A stretch of DNA of 30,530 bases. It comes from a virus. The DNA lies in IMG/VR virus record IMGVR_UViG_3300037322_000293, positions 1 to 30,530 of that record; one strand, written 5' to 3'. A program made the translations under genes and the position numbers. The notes below the pieces were generated by a model. It was not told where the DNA came from and ran no database searches. It saw nothing but the letters and a program-made list of their open reading frames with translations. Positions 9,057 through 12,419 of the stretch are shown piece after piece; the stretch's first letter is position 1, and each line of letters begins with the position of its first letter.

Positions 9057-9578
9057 ATGGCAAAAAAATCAGAAGGTGCTGAGGTGCGTGCCGCGTTTGT
9101 CGGGCCGCAAGTCGAACATGACGAGTTTATGGATTTTGTCGGAGCGCGCAATGCAGAGGACAGCAAGCGCGCGTCCAGTGCCGCCGAAAGTCGCCAGAAA
9201 ATCGGTGAGTTTCTGGACGAGACAAACCTGAACGGCAAGGCGGTGTCGATCGCGCGCCAAATCCTAAAAATCAAGGACGAGGACAAACAGGCCGATCTGA
9301 TCAGGTCGCTCGATGCCGTGCTGCCGATGGTCAAGTTGCACGTCAGCGGCCAATCGACGCCTGATATGTTTCCGGGCGTCACCACCACCGCGGTCAAGGA
9401 GAAGCCAGTGGCGGCGGAGGTTTCCGACGCTGATCTGGCAAATTTCGGTCCCGCGACCACCACCCTTTCGGCGCAGACCTACACCGAGAACTTTGACGTG
9501 TCGGACGGCGATGCGGACCTTGAGGGGGATGCTGAGTTGGACGATTTCGACAAGCATCTTGCGAAACTTGCGGGATGA
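9057..9578 (+). CDS. Early rightward protein of unknown function
   Basis: 173 residues. Residues about 40-90 form a helical segment (NLNGKAVSIARQILKIKDED, then KQADLIRSLDAVLPMV) faintly like the helical core of GapR/DUF2312 proteins; the C-terminal third is Thr/Val then very acidic (DGDADLEGDAELDDFD), perhaps a DNA mimic or disordered tail. It has the strongest ribosome-binding site in the window and overlaps the resolvase gene by ATGA, so it is likely made in quantity early in lytic growth. Function not known; the GapR likeness is weak. Confidence 0.55.
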   Translation: MAKKSEGAEVRAAFVGPQVEHDEFMDFVGARNAEDSKRASSAAESRQKIGEFLDETNLNGKAVSIARQILKIKDEDKQADLIRSLDAVLPMVKLHVSGQSTPDMFPGVTTTAVKEKPVAAEVSDADLANFGPATTTLSAQTYTENFDVSDGDADLEGDAELDDFDKHLAKLAG

Positions 9579-10108
9579 AGGTCATCGCCTTCGACATTGC
9601 AACTGTAACCGGCGTGGCTTTTGGCCTCGCCGGGGGCACCCCCAAGGCCTGGGCGGTGGATCTTGGCAAGGGGCAGTCCGAGGACGCGCGCTTTTCCAAG
9701 GCTCTCCGAATGACCGCGCATTACTGCACGTCGCTACAGCCTGATCTGGTGGCCGTAGAGGCCGCTATCGGCGGCAAGGATGCCAACGCCTACCTGATCG
9801 GGCTGGTGGCCTGTGTGCGGGGCGAGGCAACGCGGCATGGCGTGCGCTGCGTGTCGTATCACTCGGGCTCGATCAGAAAGCATTTCATCGGCAAGGCCAT
9901 GACGACGCGGGATTTCCCCGGCATGTCAGCGGCCAAGGCCAAGCTGGCGATCAAGGGCAAGGTTCTGTGGCGGTGCAACCTGCTTGGCTGGAACGTGACG
10001 GGGCTTGACGCGGCCGACGCTGCGGCAACGTGGGATTTTGCCTGCGCCATGGAAAGCCGCGCGCATCAAATGAGCAGCGTTGGCGGATTGTTCGGAGGGA
10101 AAAAATGA
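9575..10108 (+). CDS. RuvC-like Holliday-junction resolvase
   Basis: 177 residues. RNase H-like fold: Asp7 in VIAFDIATVTG, Glu62 in LVAVEAAIGG, and the C-terminal acidic helix GLDAADAAATWDFA (Asp145, Asp148). This matches phage-type RuvC-like nucleases that cut branched DNA before packaging. TRDFPGMSAAKAKLAIKGKV forms the basic connecting helix. Start overlaps the upstream stop as ATGA; its own stop overlaps the start at 10105 as ATGA. Confidence 0.82.
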   Translation: MKVIAFDIATVTGVAFGLAGGTPKAWAVDLGKGQSEDARFSKALRMTAHYCTSLQPDLVAVEAAIGGKDANAYLIGLVACVRGEATRHGVRCVSYHSGSIRKHFIGKAMTTRDFPGMSAAKAKLAIKGKVLWRCNLLGWNVTGLDAADAAATWDFACAMESRAHQMSSVGGLFGGKK

Positions 10109-11736
10109 CATGGCAACACGTCCCACACACGGATTGTCCCTCTGCTCAGGCGGCGGCGGATTGGATATGGGCCTCATGCTCGCAGAGCCCGGCTTCCACA
10201 CCCGTTGCTTTGTCGAATGGGAGGAACACCCCCGGTCAACCCTCATTGCCGCCCAGCGGGCCGGATACCTCGCCCCGGCACCGATCTGGGACGACGTTAC
10301 TACATTCGACGGGCGCCCTTTCCGCGGTGCTTTTGACACTGTGCTTGCCGGATACCCCTGCCAGCCTTTCAGCCAGGCCGGACAGCGGCGAGGTGAGGAC
10401 GACGAGCGGCACCTGTGGCCCGACGTTGCCCGGATCATCCGCGAAGTCGAGCCTGAGTGGGTGTTCCTCGAAAACGTTGCCGGTCACATCACCCTCGGCC
10501 TTGAAACCGTTCTGCGCGAGTTATGGGGAATGGGCTGGACTCCTGCGGCTGGCGCATTCTCGGCGGCTGAAACTGGTGCGCCGCATGAAAGGCTCAGGGT
10601 TTTCATCGTGGCCCACCGCGATTGCGAAAGAGGCGGGCGGGATACCTCTGCCGGCGCAAGCGGCGCAATGGCCCAGTCCACAAGCCAGGGATTTTCGCAG
10701 CGGGGATCAACCGGACAGCCCAAGGCAGACGCGCAAGGCCGATCTGGGATGGTCGCAGAACCTGAACGATATAGCGGAGCAAGGCACATGGCCGACGCCA
10801 GCGGCGCGGGATCACAAGGGCGAGAACAGCCCGGACCACCTGACCAACGGCACGGGCAGGCTGCACCTCGACCAACTGCCGAAAGCGGTGGCGCACCTCT
10901 TTTCCCACCCGGCCCCGGTGACAGCGCAGCATGGGCCGAAGTCCTTGGAGGCAATCCGCTTGTCGCGCCAGCTATTTCGGTCGGCGATGTCAAACGTGCC
11001 TGCGACCACTTTGCGCAGATGGTTGAAAGCGGGGAACTGGCGGAAAAGGAGGTTGAATCCGACCTTCGTTTGTGCATTTATGGGATGGCCGAGAGGTCAC
11101 GGATTTTGCGGCTTCTTGGGAACGGCGTCACGCCAATCACCGCTGCCTTGGCATGGCGAACACTTTCCGCAGCACATGGGTTGCATCAATGATCGAGAAA
11201 GAATGCCCACAATGTGGGGTGGTGTTTCAAGCGGAAAGGTCGCGGAGCAAGTATTGCAGCAAGCCATGCCAGCACAAATCCAGCAGGACGGGGCTTGGTT
11301 ACGTTCAGACGGATGCAGGATTGGAGCATCGTGTGAAAATGGAAAATCATCTCGGCCGGAAGTTGGAGCGATGGGAGCATGTTCATCACAGGAACGAAAA
11401 CAAGCGAGACAACAGAATCGAGAATTTGGAGATACTAACGATTCAGGGCCACACAAGCCTTCATATGTCCAAGCATCCGAAAGTGAAGGAGTGTCAGTCT
11501 TGCGGAACGCAGTTCCAGCCGGACGCGCGGCAACGGGGGCGCCAGAAGACATGTTCCAAGGTGTGTCGATACAATCTGACGGCAATAACCCTGCGCTTGT
11601 CTCGTTCCTAGACTGGCAGCGGCAAATGCGTGGCGCACTCTCGCAGTTGCCCATGGCCTCGGGCCCGTGGATATGGAAGCCACTGGTCGAGACGGCGGCG
11701 CCGATGCAGCATGATCTTTTCGGGGGGGTGGCATGA
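10105..11736 (+). CDS. Long overprinted frame (WPTP-repeat protein) over the methyltransferase
   Basis: 543 codons with no stop, in a different frame from the methyltransferase and HNH genes it covers. Its ATG has GGAGG 6 bases upstream and an ATGA overlap with the resolvase stop; its TGA overlaps the next gene's ATG as ATGA, the rule in this genome. It begins MTWQHVP, has repeated WPTP/WPSPQARD blocks, LDQLPKAV, RLNPTFVCAFMGWPRGHG and an end QLPMASGPWIWKP. I recall WPTP...LNPxFVxxLMGWP proteins as a recurrent phage family of unclear function, sometimes labelled methylase. The last 125 bases (11612-11736) are covered by no other frame. The part over the HNH gene looks less protein-like. Confidence 0.5.
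   Translation: MTWQHVPHTDCPSAQAAADWIWASCSQSPASTPVALSNGRNTPGQPSLPPSGPDTSPRHRSGTTLLHSTGALSAVLLTLCLPDTPASLSARPDSGEVRTTSGTCGPTLPGSSAKSSLSGCSSKTLPVTSPSALKPFCASYGEWAGLLRLAHSRRLKLVRRMKGSGFSSWPTAIAKEAGGIPLPAQAAQWPSPQARDFRSGDQPDSPRQTRKADLGWSQNLNDIAEQGTWPTPAARDHKGENSPDHLTNGTGRLHLDQLPKAVAHLFSHPAPVTAQHGPKSLEAIRLSRQLFRSAMSNVPATTLRRWLKAGNWRKRRLNPTFVCAFMGWPRGHGFCGFLGTASRQSPLPWHGEHFPQHMGCINDRERMPTMWGGVSSGKVAEQVLQQAMPAQIQQDGAWLRSDGCRIGASCENGKSSRPEVGAMGACSSQERKQARQQNREFGDTNDSGPHKPSYVQASESEGVSVLRNAVPAGRAATGAPEDMFQGVSIQSDGNNPALVSFLDWQRQMRGALSQLPMASGPWIWKPLVETAAPMQHDLFGGVA
10110..11192 (+). CDS. DNA (cytosine-5) methyltransferase
   Basis: 360 residues from ATG 10110. Motif I LSLCSGGGGLDMG (9-21), motif IV GYPCQPFSQAGQRRG with catalytic Cys84, motif VI LENVAGH (Glu121), motif VIII-like GAPHERLRVFIVAH, and near the end LLGNGVTP (motif IX/X region). 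The part between about residues 172 and 300, the target-recognition region, is low in complexity (Ala, Gly, Gln, Arg, Ser), which fits constraint from the overlapping frame. No cognate restriction enzyme is seen, so it probably protects phage DNA or marks it. An in-frame codon run upstream to 10080 is less likely the start. Confidence 0.88.
   Translation: MATRPTHGLSLCSGGGGLDMGLMLAEPGFHTRCFVEWEEHPRSTLIAAQRAGYLAPAPIWDDVTTFDGRPFRGAFDTVLAGYPCQPFSQAGQRRGEDDERHLWPDVARIIREVEPEWVFLENVAGHITLGLETVLRELWGMGWTPAAGAFSAAETGAPHERLRVFIVAHRDCERGGRDTSAGASGAMAQSTSQGFSQRGSTGQPKADAQGRSGMVAEPERYSGARHMADASGAGSQGREQPGPPDQRHGQAAPRPTAESGGAPLFPPGPGDSAAWAEVLGGNPLVAPAISVGDVKRACDHFAQMVESGELAEKEVESDLRLCIYGMAERSRILRLLGNGVTPITAALAWRTLSAAHGLHQ
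11189..11611 (+). CDS. HNH homing-type endonuclease with zinc knuckles
   Basis: 140 residues. Seen: N-terminal CPQCG...YCSKPC, then the HNH core EHVHHRNENKRDNRIENLEI with HTSLHM, then a second CQSCG...TCSKVC pair. This layout is that of free-standing phage HNH endonucleases. Its bases are poorer in GC than the neighbours, and it interrupts the WPTP frame between GWPRGHG and WQRQMRGALSQL, both signs of later insertion. ATGA overlap with the methyltransferase stop. Confidence 0.85.
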   Translation: MIEKECPQCGVVFQAERSRSKYCSKPCQHKSSRTGLGYVQTDAGLEHRVKMENHLGRKLERWEHVHHRNENKRDNRIENLEILTIQGHTSLHMSKHPKVKECQSCGTQFQPDARQRGRQKTCSKVCRYNLTAITLRLSRS

Positions 11737-12419
11737 CGGCCAGCACAAAGTCCCTGTTCCGCGCAATTAAAGCCAAGCCCTCGGTCGATGGCCGTCAAGA
11801 CACGATGGCGGACATTGCGGTGTCCCTCCGCCCAAAGGACGACAAGCGCCGCGCCGATGATTTCTATCCGACTGGCCAGCCGGAAGCGATCCGTGCCCTG
11901 CTACAATACGATGCCACCCCTATCCGGGCTGCTGGCACGGTATGGGAGCCTGCTTGCGGTGATGGGGCGTTGGTGCGCGAGATCCGGGCCGCTGGCCTGC
12001 CGTGCTGCGCTTCCGACCTGATCGACCGGGGCTGCGAGGACAGTTGGATTGCGGATTACTTCACTTGCCTGACCTCGTGCGGCGAAGCGATCATCACTAA
12101 TCCGCCCTACAACCTGATCAACGCCCGCGATGGGCACGGCCGCTGGCTGCGTCACACGCTTGCCATGCCGGGCTGGACCTATCTGGCGCTACTGCTGTCA
12201 TGGGACTGGCCCGCTGCTCGTCAGAACGGCCTGGGCGCGCTGCTTGACGCCAATCCATTCAGCTATTGCTACCTGATGCGCTGGAAGCTGGACTTCACTG
12301 GCGAGGGATCGCCTCCACAGCGCAACGCTTGGTTCATCTGGCAGCGCGGTTGGGACCAAGTGCCCATGCAAATGCGGTTCATGGACCGAGTAGATTACCG
12401 ACAGGAGGCGCTATTTTGA
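11733..12419 (+). CDS. N6-adenine-type DNA methyltransferase
   Basis: 228 residues. SAM-binding motif I VWEPACGDGALV (70-81) and catalytic NPPY (123-126, ITNPPYN), preceded by DDFYPTGQPEAIRALL (motif X-like, 42-57), so order X-I-IV. The end (RNAWFIWQRG, then MRFMDR) matches small phage adenine methylases. It would modify adenines, probably shielding phage DNA from restriction. ATGA overlap with the frame ending at 11736. A second ATG lies at codon 25. Confidence 0.85.
   Translation: MTASTKSLFRAIKAKPSVDGRQDTMADIAVSLRPKDDKRRADDFYPTGQPEAIRALLQYDATPIRAAGTVWEPACGDGALVREIRAAGLPCCASDLIDRGCEDSWIADYFTCLTSCGEAIITNPPYNLINARDGHGRWLRHTLAMPGWTYLALLLSWDWPAARQNGLGALLDANPFSYCYLMRWKLDFTGEGSPPQRNAWFIWQRGWDQVPMQMRFMDRVDYRQEALF

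Follow-up and report, generated by a model that had tools for sequence, protein, structure and literature searches.

Two overlapping reading frames of a phage locus appear to encode the two halves of one C5 DNA methyltransferase

In the window, the whole 30,530-nucleotide stretch of viral DNA analysed here, a C5 DNA methyltransferase gene (alpha) and an HNH endonuclease gene are overlain by one long second frame (beta), which raises the question of whether this frame is a gene and, if so, what its product does. Beta occupies 10105-11736 on the + strand and has 543 codons, an ATG start, and no internal stops. GGAGGG at 10094-10099 lies ahead of its ATG, and the ATG of alpha follows at 10110, five bases after that of beta; this single Shine-Dalgarno-like site could serve both predicted starts. 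ATGA overlaps were found at both ends of beta, with the stop of the upstream gene at 10106-10108 and the start of the downstream gene at 11733. The beta product carries WPTA, WPSPQARD, WPTPAARD, RRLNPTFVCAFMGWP, and SGPWIWKP, and the final 125 bases of the frame (11612-11736) lie beyond the HNH stop. In all these points (the stop-free frame, GGAGG and the ATGA overlaps, start codons five bases apart, WPTP/WPSPQARD blocks with a SGPWIWKP end, and a terminal 125 bases in no other gene), the locus is as the initial annotation described it. Its features are:

10094..10107, + strand: GGAGGG Shine-Dalgarno-like site and beta ATG (sequence; nested starts in relatives)
10105..11736, + strand: beta, 543 codons, proposed recognition/motif IX subunit, with the first ~165 residues lying over alpha motifs I-VIII (frame conservation, substitution tests, PHROG matches)
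10110..11192, + strand: alpha, 360 aa, core of the C5 methyltransferase, containing motifs I-VIII and X and lacking IX (PF00145, phrog_363, PDB matches)
10356..10364, + strand: alpha motif IV, catalytic PCQ (alignment)
10575..10613, + strand: alpha motif VIII region, GAPHERLRVFIVA (alignment)
10609..10830, + strand: beta WPTP-type blocks WPTAIAK, WPSPQARD, and WPTPAARDHKG (sequence, substitution tests)
11047..11100, + strand: beta motif IX-like segment, RRLNPTFVCAFMGWPRGH (profile match, hhalign)
11112..11135, + strand: alpha motif X, LLGNGVTP (alignment)
11129..11612, + strand: inserted cassette, comprising the HNH gene and a 3' end that replaces that of alpha (blastn against uninserted relatives)
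11189..11611, + strand: HNH endonuclease gene (PF13392, 2e-9)
11612..11736, + strand: beta C-terminal tail, single-coding in the window (comparison with L004)
11613..11714, + strand: stranded original alpha 3' end, LAAANAWRTLAVAHGLGPVDMEATGRDGGADAA plus stop, now beta-coding only (blastn against uninserted relatives)

The upstream neighbor is a RuvC-like resolvase gene (9575-10108; phrog_159, E 2e-9) that overlaps the beta start, and the downstream one is a second methyltransferase-like gene (11733-12419; phrog_799, E 5e-39) that shares an ATGA with the beta stop. Since the window also has integrase, RecT, terminase, and capsid genes, and genome matches in GTDB were mostly from Rhodobacteraceae, it probably derives from a temperate phage of this family.

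When only the methyltransferase part of the window was shuffled with synonymous codons, the +1 frame also stayed open in 4.5% of cases (P = 0.045). The opening is only moderately surprising at this level, as would be expected if beta were no gene but a codon-usage artefact of GC-rich DNA, and the decisive evidence comes from the relatives. IMG/VR and GTDB were queried with the alpha frame alone, and every frame was scored afterwards. The +1 frame was fully open, with motif IX in it, in 164 main-type loci, and the +2 frame of the same loci had a mean of 8.8 stops. Another 70 loci, for example in Paenibacillus larvae phages, have a shorter beta nested inside alpha, which starts near alpha motif IV in the example that was read (L097). 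Thirty alphas with less than 70% mutual identity had 9 stops in +1 against 96 expected (the minimum of 200 shuffles was 79), and these 9 are apparently confined to the margins of the overlap. A coupled start, either a beta NTG and an alpha GTG combined as NTGTGG or ATGACNTGG as in the window, could be identified in 78 of these 164 main-type loci, and 44 of the 78 also have a Shine-Dalgarno-like site. The artefact explanation is further contradicted by selection that is specific to the frame, by the conserved single-coding tail (76% amino acid identity to L004 over 38 codons, with 5, 7, and 13 substitutions at beta codon positions 1, 2, and 3), and by a frame that stays open through the HNH gene (P < 0.001). 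It is already refuted by the comparative data, and we leave it practically no chance.

Conventional enzymes of the M.NgoMIV type behaved differently: in 17 loci with motif IX in frame, beta was found in 0/17, and the 15 classified by regular expression had a mean of 9.6 stops in +1. Locus classes, including motif IX in these 15, were assigned by regular expressions, and 9 beta-containing and 2 conventional loci (L108 and L110) were assigned by eye from printed tails. Many loci in the set are closely related to each other. The type A loci were chosen partly for a stop-free +1 frame, so that zero-stop counts in the substitution tests give no separate support, unlike the silent-change and position-ratio tests, which do not depend on this selection. 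An IMG/VR search with the beta protein returned no match, and the beta alignment offered no stretch conserved enough to serve as a query there. On the strength of sequence comparison, the alpha/beta overlap is real, as the initial annotation had proposed, and it is conserved; the two-frame arrangement is, by the same comparison, common in phages and prophages. Translation of both frames is inferred from selection and was not observed.

The substitution tests located the constraint within the overlap. In 64 independent pairs, 95% of the alpha-nonsynonymous position-1 transversions were synonymous in beta, against 67% expected (z = 16), and in the recognition region alone the values were 95% and 62% (z = 17). 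The frame effect was absent in conventional enzymes at codon position 3, the sole class with enough changes (3 pairs). In 67 independent pairs, the ratio of alpha position-3 to position-1 substitutions was 3.18 and 3.88 in motifs I-VIII, 0.34 and 0.50 in the recognition gap between VIII and IX, 0.27 at the beta motif IX, and 1.22 at motif X. Because of these ratios, the constraint is read as passing from alpha in the catalytic core to beta in the recognition region and motif IX, and to both at motif X. The alpha third position changes more slowly than the first in the recognition region, and under the WPTP-type blocks (10609-10830) the alpha frame is unconserved filler; the earlier proposal that the low-complexity region of the methyltransferase is shaped by the second protein was thus borne out. 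Against its own relatives, the window had ratios of 1.8-3.4 (core), about 1 (gap), and 1.4-3.8 (motif X), the gap signal being weaker in this comparison and the gap hard to align.

Beta over motifs I-VIII acquired 0 new stops against ~90 expected, in loci preselected partly for a stop-free +1, and synonymous position-3 changes there were conservative in beta (z 7.5-8.5). The nested relatives provide an internal control, as there is no beta constraint ahead of their beta starts (10 new stops against 10.7 expected from position-3 transversions). Two other measures were dropped. Raw similarity in the alternative frame was high in +1 (z = 49) but also in the +2 control (z = 31), probably because third-position conservation lifts similarity in both frames, and it was therefore replaced by the substitution tests. 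Flanking ORFs as a codon-position control probably include spurious ORFs, and consequently segments within the gene were compared.

A change of constrained frame after motif VIII and again near X would also be produced by a single polypeptide if ribosomes shifted from alpha into the beta frame after VIII and back before X, and natural frame-fused variants (L134, L196, L138) are in keeping with such a product. However, two opposite shifts would be needed, and beta start codons are conserved, often near a Shine-Dalgarno-like site. The double frameshift is less likely above all because the N-terminal half of beta, for which the frameshift product has no need, is open and evolves conservatively over motifs I-VIII; we regard it as very improbable.

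The motif content showed what each frame contributes. Alpha has the C5 motifs I, IV (PCQ), VI (ENV), and VIII, and meets the motif X criterion (GNxV.P) with LLGNGVTP, but it lacks motif IX, which a profile match to single-chain relatives placed in beta. PF00145 matched alpha at 8e-31 over residues 9-171 only, phrog_363 matched at 3e-55, and the PDB matches (HhaI/HaeIII) covered only the catalytic half, with both Pfam and PDB matches ending after motif VIII. Beta matched phrog_27243 (1e-25) and phrog_1008 (5e-23). Its segment RRLNPTFVCAFMGWPRGH lies just upstream of alpha motif X, and the beta IX profile matched single-chain actinophage enzymes just before their motif X (L096, 7e-8; L095, 1e-6), as did the profile-profile comparison with hhalign (96.5%, E = 8e-10). 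In beta, RRLNPTFVCAFMGWP holds the motif IX position of these enzymes. Motifs I-VIII, LPTP blocks, IX, and X are all in one frame in four loci (L288, L308, L310, and L315), and the structure model of L288 matched M.HhaI (9e-13). The likeness of LNPxFVEWLMGxP to the canonical motif IX (LTPREcaRLQGFPD) is positional and was not significant alone against M.NgoMIV.

Beta is long and conserved, has its own start and tail, and has no known homologue for its N-terminal half, and might accordingly be an independent overprinted protein, such as an anti-restriction or regulatory factor, on the DNA of a self-sufficient methyltransferase. Yet alpha lacks IX wherever beta is present, while conventional IX-bearing enzymes lack beta; in relatives, a single chain holds the IX segment of beta together with I-VIII and X; and the stretch of alpha from VIII to IX is an evolutionary passenger. 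An unrelated function was rejected because the motif content is complementary and single-chain relatives exist, and we consider the independent protein improbable. Since the constraint moves to beta over the recognition region and IX, beta is best interpreted as the C5 methyltransferase half that alpha lacks, with translation, dimerisation, and methylation inferred. The purpose of the pair had been called unknown, which no longer fits, given that beta looks like a recognition/motif IX subunit from its motif content and its single-chain relatives. Homologues with many stops in +1 and an intact methyltransferase would have spoken against the overlapping pair; they were met only among conventional enzymes with IX in frame, and not among relatives with a full-length beta and no IX in alpha.

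Other divisions of the same motifs also occur. Intermediate forms have IX and X in the second frame (Gordonia phage Geodirt, L292-L297) or I-VIII, WPTP, and IX in one frame (L196, L197). Among actinophage-type loci (L292-L297, L303, L306, L307, L309, L314, and L321), IX and X lie together in +1 or +2 relative to I-VIII, which amounts to an AquI-like division in overlapping frames. Natural frame-swapped forms were seen in L134 (compared with L127-L129), L138, L196, L197, L203, L212, and L250, where single shifts join the alpha core to the beta WPTP/IX region or unite IX and X in one frame; some of these may be sequencing errors. The number of WPTP-type blocks varies (L004, L005, L006, L011, and 10609-10830 of the window), and some blocks, WPTPMAGTPAQNGNSAAG among them, are repeated both inside a single locus and from one locus to another, which suggests modular recognition units.

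A folded recognition domain in the WPTP/LPTP region was not demonstrated by structure prediction. AlphaFold modelled beta alone mostly at low confidence (mean pLDDT 55), with confident helices only at 140-161 and 281-330, and a fold search from this model was dropped for that reason. The LPTP region was unstructured in the single-chain (L288) model too, and the beta profile found no relative by sequence in the PDB.

The HNH part of the overlap has a different history. The blastn match between the window and its uninserted relatives (L004, L006, and L014) ends at 11128 and picks up again at ~11612, and the HNH_3 domain scored above the Pfam cut-off (37.1 against 24.8 bits). From this alignment, the cassette is a mobile insertion that arrived later, at the codons for motif X, and gave alpha a new 3' end. 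Beta is stop-free across the HNH part in the window (0 stops against 6.6 expected, P < 0.001) and in L005 (4314-4733), the only other carrier found (P = 0.11). The initial annotation had one frame overprinting both genes; the frame is indeed open throughout, but residues ~336-498 of the 543 are the cassette, which lies outside the core family and is missing from L004 and L006. The conserved motif X sequence is a possible homing target for the cassette. L024 was rejected as a third insertion, having only lost its beta stop.

Taken together, we hold it highly probable that one C5 methyltransferase is made as two polypeptides from overlapping frames. Beta (10105-11736) and alpha (10110-11192) would be translated from the same ribosome-binding site in comparable amounts, alpha supplying the AdoMet-binding/catalytic core (I-VIII) and motif X, and beta supplying motif IX and the WPTP target-recognition region and choosing the target sequence. 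The two would then assemble into an active heterodimeric enzyme, and the HNH gene would be a later mobile insertion at motif X supplying the new alpha 3' end. Heterodimer formation, DNA methylation, and the reading of the target by the WPTP blocks are, like translation, inferred.

Annotations frequently present just one of the two halves. The gene annotated in Synechococcus phage Ssp-JY39 and in Acidovorax phage Alfacinha1 corresponds to the beta frame, with the catalytic frame left out. At L002 2581-3696, L003 2245-3378, L102 1472-2563, and L094 1787-2653, the CDS given in the record is the beta or second-frame protein, the catalytic frame being unannotated, and 2 of the four records label it methyltransferase. 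Of the families matched by beta, phrog_1008 and phrog_27243, the former is labelled 'DNA methyltransferase' although the matching stretch has no catalytic motifs, and such labels probably arise where gene calling picked the beta frame instead of alpha. The two-frame reading predicts that database entries for phage 'DNA methyltransferases' in many cases represent half an enzyme, and one annotated gene cloned alone would then give an inactive protein. Each frame of the overlapping pair appears to supply one half of a single enzyme, and selection passes visibly between the frames at a domain boundary, providing a natural test system for the evolution of one DNA stretch under two protein constraints. 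It is likely that phage and prophage C5 methyltransferases include a large and old class, for the most part unrecognised, that carries its catalytic and recognition halves in two frames, that recognition, IX, and X were repeatedly moved from frame to frame to give single-chain, AquI-like, and EcoHK31I-like forms, and that a homing-type HNH gene was accommodated in a third frame with both proteins kept intact.

Two-polypeptide C5 enzymes have precedents. M.EcoHK31I has the target YGGCCR and M.AquI the target CYCGRG. The beta of EcoHK31I is short, and Lee et al. reportedly found in 1995 that this small subunit is encoded in another frame inside the large-subunit gene. If so, the two systems share a second subunit in an alternative frame of the first, but the beta described here begins ahead of alpha and covers its whole length. 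The large subunit of M.EcoHK31I carries motifs I-VIII and X and the small subunit IX, and its target-recognition domain was placed in the large subunit (PMC3404938). Alpha likewise has I-VIII and X with IX on the other polypeptide, whereas the recognition-region constraint here lies in beta (0.34-0.50). M.AquI is also a two-subunit C5 enzyme with I-VIII on the large subunit, but its beta carries both IX and X (PMC3404938), while X is in alpha here; Geodirt (L094) has the AquI-like division, but in overlapping frames. The single-chain actinophage enzymes (CheeseTouch, Fushigi, L288, and L310) have the same core, the same LNxxFxEWMMGLP-type IX, and in some cases in-frame LPTP blocks, but all motifs in one frame. 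Only EcoHK31I and AquI were found as precedents in the open-access papers searched, subscription papers and REBASE being outside the scope of the search. M.EcoHK31I is the closest known precedent, judged without sequence comparison, and the features that appear to be new are the full overlap with a common start, its wide spread, the repeated swaps of domains between frames, and the HNH cassette at motif X with a stop-free beta.
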